The notes beneath the pieces are model-generated. The model searched no databases and had not been told where the DNA came from. It was given only the letters and a program-made list of their open reading frames with translations. A DNA stretch of 64,000 bases from Gemmatimonas sp. (GTDB taxonomy: Bacteria; Gemmatimonadota; Gemmatimonadetes; Gemmatimonadales; Gemmatimonadaceae), in NCBI GenBank assembly GCA_011390805.1, contig JAABRT010000008.1, positions 1-64,000 on the forward strand, written 5' to 3'. The position numbers were made by a program, and so were the translations under genes. The stretch's first letter is position 1; each line of letters begins with the position of its first letter. Shown here piece after piece: positions 19,752 through 25,874 of this stretch.

Positions 19752-19810
19752 GGTCGCTCCAGATAGAGACCATGGCATTACGTGCACTCGATGGCAGGAG
19801 TTACAGCGCC

Positions 19811-19862
19811 GGAACAGCGCGTTTGACTGCGTTTTCGGTTGATGTCTGCGGTCTGCGGCTCA
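19811..19862 (+). repeat. Interspersed intergenic repeat, copy A
   Basis: ggaacagcgcgtttgactgcgttttcggttgatgtctgcggtctgcgg; 22 bp (19817-19838) identical to the reverse complement of copy B. Confidence 0.8.
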
Positions 19863-19865
19863 CGG

Positions 19866-19893
19866 TGAAATCAGAAAGCCCGAGCCGCAGGCT
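19866..19893 (-). terminator. Terminator-like hairpin downstream of the epimerase gene
   Basis: Minus strand AGCCTG-CGGCT-CGGGCT followed by TTCTGATTT; lies inside a larger imperfect palindrome. Confidence 0.5.
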
Positions 19894-19938
19894 TCGTCCT
19901 ACCAAAAACGCCGTCAATCGGCAGTAAAAACCGCCAAC

Positions 19939-21114
19939 CTAACCCGCCCGATTCTTCCACGCCGCCAGCACCGCCCGCTCCTTCTCGGCCGTAGCACCGG
20001 CACGAAGCGTCGCCTTGCGGTCAGCGTCGCGCGAGTGGTGGTACTCAAGTGTCGCGAGTGCTGTGTCAGCGAGCGAGCGGAAGGTGAGTCCCGCAGCCAC
20101 CTCGCGACTCAAATCAAACCGTGCAAAGCCCTCAAAGCCCGGGGTAGGGGGGCGCCACACGGGCATCTCGGCGTACGGACGGATTTGCTGTGTGGCGAGA
20201 AACTCACGCGGCACCCATGTCCACGAGAGCGGCGCTGTTGTCACACCGGCAATTCCGTACAGGAACTCCGCCATTGACCGGCCATTCTCCGGACCAATGC
20301 CCATGAACGTGCCGTACGTGCGGTCTTCACACAGACGCACCGCCCACTCGCACAGATCACGCACATCAATCACCTGTACCCGATCATTTTCCGGGTCACC
20401 GGGCGCAAGAATCTCCCCCCCCCGCTCAATGCGCACCGGCCAATAGGTAAAGCGATCCGTCTCGTCGCCGGGGCCGACAATCAGTCCCGGTCGCACGATC
20501 GTGGTGCGATCACCAAATGCCGCGCGCGCTTCGGCTTCGGCCAACGCCTTGGCCAAACCGTACGGATACGGCTGCCCCTCGCTCCAGTTGCGCGTATTCG
20601 TTTTGTTGAGCAGCGGTGCATCAACAGTGCCCGGTACCTTGCTCAAATCGGCAAAGACTGAACGCGTTGAAATGAACAGATACTGGTCCGCTGCGTCACG
20701 CAGCAGCGCGGCCGAGTCCTTCACCCACATGGGGGCGTCGGCACGTGACGCCGAGTTGTCAATCACCGCATCCCATTTGCGTCCCTTCAGCGCATCAAGC
20801 TGATTGGCCGCGCGGTCGCCGGTGAGCTCTTCAACACCGTCAAACATGCCGGGCGCCGAGCGCCCGCGATTGAAGATCGTGACCTCGTGTCCACGTGCAA
20901 CAGCGTAACGCACCTGATGCGGACCAATGAATCCAGTACCACCGAGAATGAGCAGCTTGATGCGGCGAGGAGCCGGTGCAACCGCTCGAACTTTCGCAGC
21001 GCGCGGAGCGAGTGTCGCGCCAAGCGCATGAGACACACCGGGTGCACCAGCACCAAGGGCCGCCGCTCCGCCAACCAGGCCGAGTTGCGTAAGAAAGTCG
21101 CGACGATTTGACAT
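19939..21114 (-). CDS. NAD-dependent epimerase/dehydratase-like protein with Tat signal
   Basis: Start MSNRRDFLTQLGLVGGAAALGAGAPGVSHA (twin-Arg); LLILGGTGFIGPHQVRYAVARGHEVTIFNRG Rossmann motif. Confidence 0.88.
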   Translation of the reverse strand: MSNRRDFLTQLGLVGGAAALGAGAPGVSHALGATLAPRAAKVRAVAPAPRRIKLLILGGTGFIGPHQVRYAVARGHEVTIFNRGRSAPGMFDGVEELTGDRAANQLDALKGRKWDAVIDNSASRADAPMWVKDSAALLRDAADQYLFISTRSVFADLSKVPGTVDAPLLNKTNTRNWSEGQPYPYGLAKALAEAEARAAFGDRTTIVRPGLIVGPGDETDRFTYWPVRIERGGEILAPGDPENDRVQVIDVRDLCEWAVRLCEDRTYGTFMGIGPENGRSMAEFLYGIAGVTTAPLSWTWVPREFLATQQIRPYAEMPVWRPPTPGFEGFARFDLSREVAAGLTFRSLADTALATLEYHHSRDADRKATLRAGATAEKERAVLAAWKNRAG

Positions 21115-21319
21115 GAAGGCGGCCGGGAAGGAGGGGAGTGCACAACCGAGCGGCCAACGCAGCAGCCGCCGATACAGCAATATCCGCCGCCAGAGAATCA
21201 CAGTCAACACAGAGCAAGCGCACGAGGGCATTGACACCGAGAGGTAAGCGCATGTCAGAAGATCACCTGAGAGCGTATACCAAGAGCGCTGCCACACCGT
21301 CCCCAGGCCCTCAGCCCCC

Positions 21320-21376
21320 CCACCGCAGACCGCAAACAGCAAACCCTCACCGAAAACGCAGTCAAACGCGCAGTTC
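21320..21376 (-). repeat. Interspersed intergenic repeat, copy B (inverted relative to A)
   Basis: Reverse complement ...tgcgcgtttgactgcgttttcggtgagggtttgctgtttgcggtctgcggtg. Confidence 0.8.
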
Positions 21377-21380
21377 AACC

Positions 21381-21434
21381 TCGAACCGTAAACAGAAAAC
21401 CCAAACCGAAAACGCGGTAAAACGCGCTGTTTCC
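21381..21434 (-). repeat. Interspersed intergenic repeat, copy C (tandem with B)
   Basis: Reverse complement ggaaacagcgcgttttaccgcgttttcggtttgggttttctgtttacggttcga; diverged tandem copy at about 60-bp offset. Confidence 0.75.
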
Positions 21435-21440
21435 AAACCC

Positions 21441-21480
21441 AAAAAAAAACGGGCCATCACCACTTTGGTGACAGCCCGTT
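21441..21480 (-). terminator. Rho-independent terminator of the susC-susD transcript
   Basis: Minus strand AACGGGCTGTCACCA-AAG-TGGTGATGGCCCGTTTTTTTTT; stem with two mismatches then T9. Confidence 0.93.
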
Positions 21481-21512
21481 CTCTTCACTTCAACAACAGT
21501 TGCTCCGTGCGA

Positions 21513-22760
21513 TTAACGATTCGGAATGTTCTCGTTGTTATCCGTCTCAGCAATCGGCAACGGCCAGCACACCTGATTACCGATCGGCGCGAAGGCCGCC
21601 TTGAAGTACGGCGCATTGGCTTCCGGCACGTTGAGCACGTTTTCCGGAATGCGGCGGAAGTCACCCATGCGCTTGGCTTCAAGGTAGAAGTCGCGCGCCT
21701 TCTGCTCCATCAACTCGGTGAGCACCGCGGAAGCCGACGTAGCGCCGGTGTAGGCCGGCTGTCCGTTCGCCGAACGGCGGGCCGCGATCAGCGCGAGCTG
21801 TGCAGCCGTACCCGTTGCTTCAGCTTCGATGTAGTCGGCTTCCACCTTGGATGCGAGACGAATTGGGCTGGAGAACGACGGATACTTGTCCTGAATGAAG
21901 AAGTCTCCGCTCGACGGATCCTGAGGATTCAGGTTGTGCTCAGACGGCGACTTGAACGGAATGCGCGGGTCGTCCACACGGTACGCCGGCGCGATGGAAA
22001 TCGATCCGCGATCGAGCGTAAACTGCCACATACGATTTCCCAGACGCGTGCGCTGAGCCGGGTCATCGAGGTAGTTCAAGCTGAACGTGAAGCCAGCGGG
22101 CACAGCCTGCGCGGCTGCGATTGCCTGCGCGCCGCGACCAGCCTGCAGCTGCGCACGGGCCAGACCAACGCGGGCAGCGTTGGCGAGCGACACGCCGGTC
22201 GCAGTGCCGTTGGCGGTACCGGTGCTCACCGCCTGCTGGAACGCCGCCACAGCGGAATCAAGCATCGCCGCCGTGTTGAGCGCCGGACCACCGCTCGAAA
22301 CACCTTCGCAAAAGCTTTCGGCCATCAACACAAAGCTGTACCCCTTGAACAACGCGGCACGGGCATAGTTGATGTTGCTCGTTGGCTCCGGCAACTCGAG
22401 ATCGAGTACGGTTGACGCCGAAGCCAGCGCCACACCCAAGGGTGCCCAAAGATCGTCGTTGTGTGAGCCGTTGGTATTGAGCACATCACGACGTCCAAAC
22501 TCGTTTCGGGTCGGGAACGTTTCGGCCACCAGCGCCTCGCCGACAAACCACGACTGGTACATGGCGAACCAGCCCAGTGTGACAGCAAAGTTCTGTTGTG
22601 CCGAGGCGGCAAGGGTGGGTGCGTCGTTCACCGGATCGATGGCCGACGCGTCAATGACGTTGGGATTTCTGACCGTGAGGAAATCCGCACAGCCGCCGAG
22701 ACTCAACCCCATAAGTGCGGTAACCGCACCCACACGGGTCGCGCGTTGAATATTTGTCAT
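21513..22760 (-). CDS. SusD/RagB family outer-membrane lipoprotein
   Basis: Lipobox MGLSLGGCADFLTVRNPN; C-terminal RRIPENVLNVPEANAPYFKAAFAPIGNQVCWPLPIAETDNNENIPN typical of SusD-like proteins; follows susC. Confidence 0.88.
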   Translation of the reverse strand: MTNIQRATRVGAVTALMGLSLGGCADFLTVRNPNVIDASAIDPVNDAPTLAASAQQNFAVTLGWFAMYQSWFVGEALVAETFPTRNEFGRRDVLNTNGSHNDDLWAPLGVALASASTVLDLELPEPTSNINYARAALFKGYSFVLMAESFCEGVSSGGPALNTAAMLDSAVAAFQQAVSTGTANGTATGVSLANAARVGLARAQLQAGRGAQAIAAAQAVPAGFTFSLNYLDDPAQRTRLGNRMWQFTLDRGSISIAPAYRVDDPRIPFKSPSEHNLNPQDPSSGDFFIQDKYPSFSSPIRLASKVEADYIEAEATGTAAQLALIAARRSANGQPAYTGATSASAVLTELMEQKARDFYLEAKRMGDFRRIPENVLNVPEANAPYFKAAFAPIGNQVCWPLPIAETDNNENIPNR

Positions 22761-22774
22761 ATGTGAGAGTTCGC

Positions 22775-25700
22775 TCAGAAGGTGAAGTTGGTCTTGAGGA
22801 CGAAGCGGCGCGGATTCGGAAGCGTGAGGAAATCGGTGCGCGAGAAGTTGCCACCGGCGGCCGAAATCACTTCCGGGTCTGCACCCTCATAGTCCGTCCA
22901 CAGCGCGAGGTTCTGACCAGCGATTGTGAACGATGCGCCACTCAACACACCGATGCGCTGCGCCAACGAGCGCGGCAACGTGTAGGTGAGCGACACTTCA
23001 CGCAGGCGGATGAAGTCACCCGGCTGGATGTACGCTTCACGAGCGTTGTTCACGTTAGTAGTACCACCGCTCTCGGTCACAAAACCAGGCTGGCCGGGCG
23101 TGTCATTGCCATAGCGACGCAGGCGCTCGCGACGCGGCAGCTTGTTCACGTCAACACGGTTTTCACCGCGGATGAACTGCGTCTCGCGGAAGAAGTCAGT
23201 GTTGTTGAACACGCTGAAGTCGCTCTTCGCGTCAAGCAACGCAGTGAGGCGCAAGTTCTTGAACAGCGTGAACGAGTTGGAGAGGTTCCACTCAAGCGTC
23301 GGCATGATGTTGCCAACAACTTCAAGCGTATCAGCCACCGTCACAACGCCCGTTGTTTCATCGATTGAGCGCACAGGCTGCGTCACGAACGAGCCGAGCT
23401 GGAAGCCTTCGGTGAAGCGGTTGAGCGTGCCGAACGCGTTCACGCCGCCAAGGTCAATCAGCTCGTTGTTGAGCGTATTGCCGCCGGCCCGAAGCTCCCA
23501 ATCGAAGTTTTCGGTGCGCAGCATGTTGGCTGACACTGACACTTCAAAGCCGCTGTTCAGCACTTCGCCGATGTTGGCAAACGGGTCGCCCAGGAAGCCG
23601 AGTGACGGCGGGAGCGGACGCGAAAGCAACAGGTCGGTGGTGGTCTTGTTGAAGTACGTGACTTCAAGGCTGATTCGGTCATTCCACGCCGAGGCGTCAA
23701 AACCAAGTTCGTACTCCGTACCACGCTCGGCTCGGAGCGAGTCGTTACCCGGGTTGTTCGGGATGGCACCGGCTTCAGCCGTGCCGACGATGGCGAACGG
23801 TGCTGCGGAGAACGTCTGGAGCGAGGCTCCGGGGTTTGGCGCACGTCCGGTGGTTCCCCATGCCGCGCGCAAACGCAACTGGGTGAGGAAGCCGGTGAGC
23901 GGGGCAAAGAAGTCTTCTTCGGAGATCACCCATGACGCACCAACTTTCGGCAGGAAGAACGACGGAGCGCCTTCGCCGAATGAGGAGTTCTGGTCAACAC
24001 GGGCACCAAGCTGCAGGAAGCGGCGATCGCGGCTGCTGATCTGCAGTTCGCCCAGGTAGCCGAGAGCCTTGCTTTCGGAGAAACTCTGGCCGCCCGTACG
24101 GGTGGAGGCGTTGTTCACACTGCTGGCCGCGTTGGTCACGAAGCCGAAGCCGCTGGCCGACGTCACGTCCTGACGGGTGATGATGGACTGCAAACCACCG
24201 GAGAGGTTCACTCCCCACTGACCTTCATCGCCCAACGTCTTACGCACGTTACCGATGTAGTCAATCGTGAAGCGATCAAGACCAATGCGATCAACGTCAC
24301 GGTCGCCGGTGTTGTTGTTGCCGACGTACGCGCCCACAGAGTTGCGCGGGAAGAAGTTGTTGATTTCGTCGCGTGCGAGGTCAGCACCAATGTTCAAACG
24401 GTTGGTGAACCAGTCAAACGGCTGGTACTGCGTGAGCACATTCACCTGCGAGCGACGTGACTGCACCGAGGCTTCGATGGCCGAAATCGCTTCTACCTGA
24501 CGGGCAAAGCCAAACCAGCCGTCCGTGCCTGGGTTTCCATCATCGCGACGCGTGAGCGGATTGCCGAGGAAGTGACCACCCAGGAAACCGTAAATGTTGT
24601 TGTCGTTCTGCGGGAGATCCGACGTGGACTGCAGCACGTTCAAGCCGATATCGATCTTGACGCGTGGATCGGGAACGAAGTTCACGTTGGAACGGAAGCC
24701 GATGCGCTCAAACGCATTGTTCGGCAGCGTGCCTTCCGTCTTGTCGGACGTGGCGCTGAGGAAGTAGCCGTAGTTGGAACCACCACCACGACCCGTCCAG
24801 CCGATGTTGCGCTCGGTACCGGTGCTGAAGGCGTTGCCGCGAAGCAGCGGATTGTCCGAAATCAGCGTACCCACCGCCTGACCGCGGCACAGAGGATTCG
24901 TGCTGGTGGCCGCAACTGTGGACGCGGTGCACAACGCGAAGTTGGACGGAACGTCCCAGTTCTGATCGATCTGGGCCACGTCAACGCGCAACGTCTGCGA
25001 GAAGGAGTTGGAACCCAGCTTTCCTTTCTTCGTGATGATCTGGATAACACCAGCCGAAGCGTCGGCACCGTACAGCGTGGCGGCCGCCGGTCCCTTCACG
25101 ACTTCAATGGACTCGATGTCGTCAGGGTTGATGTCGTTCAGACGATCGGTGATCTGTCCGCCGGTGCCCGGGTTGAACTGCGACTCCGAGACGCGGATAC
25201 CGTCAATGAAGATGAGCGGCTGGTTGGACAACGAGATGGACGAGGCACCACGGATACGGATCTGACGCGACGCGCCGGCCGTTCCTGACGTCGCACTTAC
25301 CGAGACACCCGGCAAACGCGACTGCAGCACTTCGTTCACGTTGGACACCGGCGCCGTACGCGCCAGATCAGCCACGGGCAATGACGCCACAACGGCGGCC
25401 TGTGCACGACGCTGCGTATTTCCCGTTACACCCGTCACAACAACTTCAGCCAGCGTGGAGACGGTCGCGTCAAGCGCGAAGTTGCGCTCGATGCGCTGTC
25501 CGGCCGCAATCCGAATGGAATCTCCACGCGCCTTGTAGCCAATGCGCTGTACTGAAACCAGCGACAGACCCGGGCGGATGTTGACGATGCTGTATTCACC
25601 CGCGTCGTTCGTGATGCCAACCAGCGTGGTGCCGCCGATAAGGACCGTGGCGCCGCCGAGCGGAGCACCGGTTGCTGCATCCGTCACTTTGCCGGCGAGC

Positions 25701-25801
25701 GTTCCCGTTTGCTGTGCGTCCAAGGTGGTGGGTGACGCAGCAAGGGCGAACAAAGCTGCCGCGCCAAGCACGTGGAGACACGTTCGGAGTTCTCTGAACA
25801 T
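22775..25801 (-). CDS. SusC/RagA family TonB-linked outer-membrane protein
   Basis: CarboxypepD_reg-like N-terminus (GKVTDAATGAPLGGATVLI), plug domain (LQSRLPGVSVSATSG...IRIRGASSISLSNQPLIFIDGIRV...ATLYGADASAGVIQIITKKG); probable start MFRELRT at 25801. Confidence 0.95.
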   Translation of the reverse strand: MFRELRTCLHVLGAAALFALAASPTTLDAQQTGTLAGKVTDAATGAPLGGATVLIGGTTLVGITNDAGEYSIVNIRPGLSLVSVQRIGYKARGDSIRIAAGQRIERNFALDATVSTLAEVVVTGVTGNTQRRAQAAVVASLPVADLARTAPVSNVNEVLQSRLPGVSVSATSGTAGASRQIRIRGASSISLSNQPLIFIDGIRVSESQFNPGTGGQITDRLNDINPDDIESIEVVKGPAAATLYGADASAGVIQIITKKGKLGSNSFSQTLRVDVAQIDQNWDVPSNFALCTASTVAATSTNPLCRGQAVGTLISDNPLLRGNAFSTGTERNIGWTGRGGGSNYGYFLSATSDKTEGTLPNNAFERIGFRSNVNFVPDPRVKIDIGLNVLQSTSDLPQNDNNIYGFLGGHFLGNPLTRRDDGNPGTDGWFGFARQVEAISAIEASVQSRRSQVNVLTQYQPFDWFTNRLNIGADLARDEINNFFPRNSVGAYVGNNNTGDRDVDRIGLDRFTIDYIGNVRKTLGDEGQWGVNLSGGLQSIITRQDVTSASGFGFVTNAASSVNNASTRTGGQSFSESKALGYLGELQISSRDRRFLQLGARVDQNSSFGEGAPSFFLPKVGASWVISEEDFFAPLTGFLTQLRLRAAWGTTGRAPNPGASLQTFSAAPFAIVGTAEAGAIPNNPGNDSLRAERGTEYELGFDASAWNDRISLEVTYFNKTTTDLLLSRPLPPSLGFLGDPFANIGEVLNSGFEVSVSANMLRTENFDWELRAGGNTLNNELIDLGGVNAFGTLNRFTEGFQLGSFVTQPVRSIDETTGVVTVADTLEVVGNIMPTLEWNLSNSFTLFKNLRLTALLDAKSDFSVFNNTDFFRETQFIRGENRVDVNKLPRRERLRRYGNDTPGQPGFVTESGGTTNVNNAREAYIQPGDFIRLREVSLTYTLPRSLAQRIGVLSGASFTIAGQNLALWTDYEGADPEVISAAGGNFSRTDFLTLPNPRRFVLKTNFTF

Positions 25802-25825
25802 GAAACAGACCGTCCTGAAGGAAGG

Positions 25826-25874
25826 AAAAAACATTGGGGAGGCCCGTATGACGAGCCGTCACGGGTCATCCCCA
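25826..25874 (-). promoter_or_regulatory. Terminator/attenuator-like hairpin plus T6 in the susC 5' leader
   Basis: Minus strand TGGGGA..CCCGT..GACG-GCT-CGTC..ACGGG..TCCCCA then ATGTTTTTT, located 23-73 nt upstream of ATG 25801. Confidence 0.55.

Follow-up and report, generated by a model that had tools for sequence, protein, structure and literature searches.

A lineage-specific, constrained family of intergenic repeats in a Gemmatimonas genome, with a 57-nt unit that may be read in heptads by a DNA-binding protein

The genome of this Gemmatimonas sp. (G000; 3.96 Mb in 170 contigs, 88% complete) harbours a family of intergenic repeats that is real, lineage-specific, constrained and marked by a heptad recognition pattern. 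In the explanation that we tentatively prefer, at close to an even chance, its 57-nt unit would be an array of short binding sites for a candidate DNA-binding host protein, probably a dimer with dyad symmetry. Copy number and placement are commonly all that is used to decide whether interspersed repeats in bacteria are selfish or functional. Here free positions have been randomised and fixed positions have hardly changed, which is direct evidence of constraint on the units. What are these units, and what keeps them intact?

Three copies, A, B and C, had been predicted in the window, by which we mean the whole 64,000-nt stretch of DNA analysed, and all three are present where they were placed (Table 1). 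As foreseen, copy A is inverted relative to the other two (complementary to B at 79% over 56 nt), and B and C stand in tandem, with 56-nt spacing and 81% identity. The exact block shared by A and B was also found; it measures 23 nt and not the 22 nt first given (GCGCGTTTGACTGCGTTTTCGGT; 19817-19839 against 21349-21371 reverse-complemented). The 18-nt core, searched with at most three mismatches, has 4 matches in the window against 0.03 expected from shuffles, and the fourth (19901-19918, minus strand), which the original prediction had missed, falls inside the degenerate partner that faces copy A and begins at the stop codon of the epimerase gene (19939-19941). Two elements of the original prediction have to be given up. 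The copies are not low-complexity sequence, each being an ordered 57-nt unit; and the bracketing of the epimerase gene, whose product has a Tat-type N-terminus (signal read from the sequence), is accidental, since A and its partner occupy the gap behind this gene and B and C the gap behind the presumed SusD-like gene, two separate gene-end gaps. After the stop codon of the latter come a strong intrinsic terminator, copy C and copy B, in that order; the terminator, lying between gene and copy C, is not part of the repeat.

Table 1. Repeat copies and neighbouring features in the window
Feature	Positions	Strand	Remarks
Copy A	19813..19866	+	One unit; G for A in two heptad boxes
Degenerate facing partner of copy A	19898..19941	-	Core ATTGACGGCGTTTTTGGT, plus the tail of a preceding unit
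NAD-dependent epimerase gene	19939..21114	-	PF01370, E 6e-15
Copy B	21321..21376	-	One unit
Copy C	21378..21431	-	One unit; tandem with copy B
Intrinsic terminator of the SusD-like gene	21433..21485	-	RNA fold -29.2 kcal/mol, z -7.1, then U9
SusD-like gene (presumed)	21513..22760	-	Assigned from its position beside a TonB-dependent receptor at 22775-25834

The genome-wide motif search proposed with the original prediction returned 79 matches to the core, against 4 with the reversed control; the motif is thus neither confined to the window nor present in chance numbers, and the window shuffles and reversed control together rule out chance or base composition as the source of the repeats. With a profile we found 84 units; they lie in about 30 clusters, taken with 4-kb flanks, and the census consists of the pattern search and the stretches fetched. 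Stretches of this genome totalling 345 kb and lying largely outside the known clusters contained no units, so decayed solitary copies must be rare. Clusters on four contigs (C20, C53, C94 and C109) stop within 50 nt of the contig end, far above chance. This makes breakage of the assembly at the elements probable, and the unit count a minimum. Of note, contigs C11 (reversed) and C105 are probably adjacent, judging by synteny with contig C14 of a related genome (G001).

The unit is 56-60 nt long (AACnGCCGTTTGACnGCGTTnTCGGTnnnnGTnnACnGTnnACGGTnnGCGGTTT) and is repeated at a spacing of mostly 56-60 nt. Its 3' half is a 7-bp-phased run of AC-n-GT boxes (GTnnACnGTnnACnGTnnnCGGT); constraint is just as strong in the 5' half (GCCGTTTGACnGCGTTnTCGGT), which shows no clean fit to the heptad rule. 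Units start with AACnGCC and end with GGCGGTT, and since these ends can pair, a small stem could form at tandem junctions. Integron attC sites, whose end consensus is GTTRRRY, were rejected as an identity for the repeat because its GTTTGAC end does not fit. Within a cluster, a unit may stand by itself, be repeated in tandem or face another unit across a short loop (-><-). In two clusters (L036 4101-4506 and L056 4156-4628) decayed remnants of one mobile-element-like sequence lie between the arms (GTGTGTGAGGCATATC...ATGCCACG, starting MPRKP). Their short N-termini have no match in Pfam, and the remnant resembles an IS256-type end; the palindromes may offer insertion sequences a place to land.

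How strong is the evidence for constraint? In the 84-unit profile C37, G39, T40, C44 and G46 are conserved at 100%, and positions 34-35, 38, 41-42 and 48-49 are near random. Tandem neighbours compared over the whole unit differ at 158 of 471 variable positions against 13 of 760 fixed ones, and over the 3' half at 99 of 270 free against 1 of 204 fixed positions, that is, at rates of 34-37% and 0.5-2%, respectively. This contrast is not due to how the units were found, as the 3' half lay outside the 18-nt search pattern. Free positions are 66% identical in tandem neighbours and 41% in random pairs, so tandem copies have been duplicated locally, and because drift after copying would hit fixed and free positions alike, the units must be constrained. 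Between loci the free positions are near saturation (60% different), which makes the copies old; decayed copies are nearly absent all the same. The source of the constraint is either a host function or a copying process that accepts intact units only.

The units are placed at gene ends. According to our own hexamer-based gene caller, which makes these figures approximate, 28 of 45 unit 5' ends face the 3' end of a gene, with a median distance to the stop codon of about 12 nt and some units overlapping it, those that face a gene 5' end lie at a median of about 76 nt, and convergent gaps are enriched (9/28 among element-bearing gaps against 48/323, p 0.03). At all four orthologous sites tested, with flanking genes conserved, the element is absent from the sister genomes. 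The gap at the ALAD-pyrophosphatase site measures about 60-75 nt in the sisters against about 240 here; at the E1-dehydrogenase and HtpX sites the sisters examined carry hairpin terminators in place of the element; and at the CN-hydrolase site, where two of three sisters have a match to the neighbour gene, hardly any gap is left in the closest sister. It follows that the family was either gained once this lineage had separated from these relatives (about 80-89% protein identity) or lost at these four sites in every sister. The exact family was not found in 59 relatives, where the search gave no more than two single matches, each with 2 mismatches. Plasmids and phages gave no match, so an origin from either was rejected, and scans for the exact pattern, run on 84,980 prokaryote genomes and also on viral contigs, returned 8 loci, all with the core only and in about the number expected by chance. 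At one locus, in a Deltaproteobacteria MAG (L071 1740-1890; JAADHK010000134.1), there are two nearby copies of TTTGACTGCGTTATCGGTCGGAGATATACGAAA; they match the core only and are probably unrelated to the family.

Taken together, the genome-wide spread, the intergenic position, the facing pairs, the near absence from relatives and the empty sister sites uphold the proposal of a lineage-specific, dispersed, palindromic, REP-like element. Does this make it a REP? Like REP, BIME and REPIN sequences (PMC3733652, PMC3116915), the family is dispersed, intergenic, found mostly behind genes, lineage-specific, and deployed in facing, alternating or tandem combinations. It differs from them in having a 57-nt unit with no stem-loop inside it instead of a 20-40-nt stem-loop, in lacking the terminal GTAG or CGTC tag next to such a stem-loop, in its interleaving of fixed and random bases, and in that no RAYT was found. 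The RAYT-type transposase put forward as a mobiliser was not found: PF01797 (Y1_Tnp) has 0 matches in this genome (88% complete) and in four same-genus genomes, and the same search was positive in control genomes and in 13 other relatives. GTAG REPs have a RAYT, and CGTC REPs, with no known transposase, offer a precedent for transposase-less families (PMC3733652, PMC3116915). The best reading is that the family is REP/BIME-like in its deployment and not a RAYT-linked GTAG REP.

Could the units nevertheless be selfish, REPIN- or MITE-like elements, depending for their mobility in trans on a transposase of another class or on one that the assembly does not contain? The invariant bases would then be what the transposase needs, with only intact units being copied, and such machinery could indeed produce the observed constraint, which is an argument against a host reader. 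A dispersed, intergenic and lineage-specific distribution, palindromic pairs, four empty sister sites and the incompleteness of the genome all speak for it. Inverted ends are present in the family. Set against these are the missing Y1 transposase, the near absence of decayed copies in a family this old, and the lack of a target-site duplication apparent by eye at the few loci inspected; we regard this origin as doubtful, though far from negligible. It is very improbable that the family is a functionless by-product of heptanucleotide repeat slippage, a process common in the phylum. ACnGT and TGnCA heptad arrays do occur in many relatives, and among long simple repeats those of heptamers rank first in many bacteria (Mrazek et al. 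2007, cited in PMC4679880). Slippage, however, would yield near-identical head-to-tail copies, whereas this family has an ordered 56-60-nt unit in which random and nearly fixed positions each make up half, and in which the heptad phase is limited to the 3' half. The same distinction separates it from the known heptameric intergenic repeats, TAACTGA in Beggiatoaceae and Cyanobacteria (PMC4679880) and GGGAATC in Xanthomonas and Nostoc (PMC4692102), which share the 7-nt period, the intergenic location and the many copies per genome but are near-perfect tandem heptamers with no such ordered unit or free positions.

Facing units might act as bidirectional transcription terminators or as hairpins at mRNA 3' ends, and several observations agree with this: facing pairs can form hairpins of about 114 nt (-102 kcal/mol at locus L045), copy A with its partner folds better than shuffles (19800-19945, z -3.8), the units follow stop codons, and at two of the four sister sites, both convergent, a hairpin terminator stands where the element stands here. 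Yet a number of clusters lack a facing arm, and shuffled sequences fold as well as the B/C tandem does, and as well as single units do on both strands (z about -0.3). The variable positions of 13 facing pairs agree between arms at 0.394 against 0.41 at random, meaning no covariation; with the folding of single units, this rules out an RNA hairpin as the conserved property. Nor is there a U-run after the facing pairs at the loci inspected. A strict scan for a stem-loop with a U-run, inside and outside the elements, gave 1 element-internal case in 28 element-bearing gaps, convergent gaps with and without the element show no difference in canonical terminators, and Rfam has no match at E<=1 in three loci (L045, L057 and L060). 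An ordinary terminator already precedes copies C and B in the window, and at the CN-hydrolase site no terminator hairpin is present in the closest sister. The terminator role that the original prediction had suggested is therefore weakened to an improbable one, although the sister hairpins speak for it. Composition raises a further option, because the strand of the unit is rich in G and T (37.7% G, 20.4% C) and the opposite strand in C and A, with CC about every 7 nt: the units could be G-quadruplexes or Rho-utilisation sites. Neither requires invariant A, C and T, and Rho disfavours G in the C-rich strand. A canonical quadruplex motif is present in 1 of 73 units and a two-tetrad motif in 36 of 73, and the G that would complete a GG at position 38 is free (G in 50%). 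The rarity of the canonical motif and this free position led us to reject a G-quadruplex as the conserved property, and we give the quadruplex and Rho option scarcely any credence.

With pairing and quadruplexes set aside, the property left is base-specific recognition of the dyad-symmetric pentamer AC-n-GT, which recurs every 7 bp. This points to a putative protein that would read the AC-n-GT boxes. Each unit would be kept by purifying selection, and the protein would coat the array; it may be a ribbon-helix-helix protein of the type that recognises adjoining boxes of 7-8 bp. Once bound, the array might act at gene ends by insulation, by blocking read-through, or by nucleoid anchoring or effects on supercoiling, as is thought for BIMEs. 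The nucleoid sites put forward in the original prediction would be near in kind to this reading. There is a model for such a reader: the ribbon-helix-helix ParB (omega) of pSM19035 binds adjoining WATCACW heptads, whichever way round they lie (PMC9499535). The parS arrays of that plasmid share with our family the contiguous 7-bp boxes, a fixed core, free or weak edge positions and the use of both orientations. The family described here differs in being chromosomal, in its dispersal behind many genes, in its palindromic AC-n-GT core and in the longer unit around it; the likeness is one of function, with no homology claimed. If the protein-read array is confirmed, it would be a chromosomal counterpart of the heptad-reading partition and repressor systems, and would show that REP-like deployment can be reached without a RAYT.

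Is the heptad pattern peculiar to this genome? A second genome of the genus (G003) has a different palindromic family (TCGGCnACGGTnnACGGTnnnCGGTnnnCGGTCTGGCC), with about 55 matches against 3 in the control, which is likewise intergenic, 16 of its 18 clusters lying between convergent or tandem genes. Both families follow a C-n-GT heptad rule, whereas their ends and loops differ, their arms have opposite polarity, and the G003 family is absent from the tested G003 gaps orthologous to element sites of our genome. Conservation at the heptad positions of the G003 family is partly imposed, as most copies were found with the heptad pattern; the same heptads are nevertheless seen in 34 matches gathered with nothing but the outer end. 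In the three remaining genomes of the genus no strand gave more than 1 match, and no comparable family turned up in the samples taken of two of these, G001 and G004. A precise heptad motif common to differently built families in two sister species means that a putative reader protein can be fished for. One may go further and propose a host system of this bacterial family, in which a 7-bp-phased palindromic AC-n-GT code, read by a polymerising dimeric protein, would mark gene ends and each species would build its own elements around the same code. We consider this rather unlikely; if true, the heptad code would outlive the sequences that carry it. The G004 sample (L196-L215) has another dispersed sequence, GCCGTGCTGGTACCCCCACA, which occurs at least 4 times in 185 kb.

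Across the phylum, exact four-heptad arrays of ACnGT were found in 34 of 395 genomes and those of the reversed core TGnCA in 27 of 395. The two are nearly equally widespread, so a 7-nt periodicity is not diagnostic in itself, and no special status is claimed for the AC-n-GT core phylum-wide. Tens to hundreds of heptad-array matches are present in G244, G311, G263, G374 and G366 for ACnGT, and in G320, G261 and G218 for TGnCA. The arrays of several genomes of the phylum have a palindromic core with a free central base.
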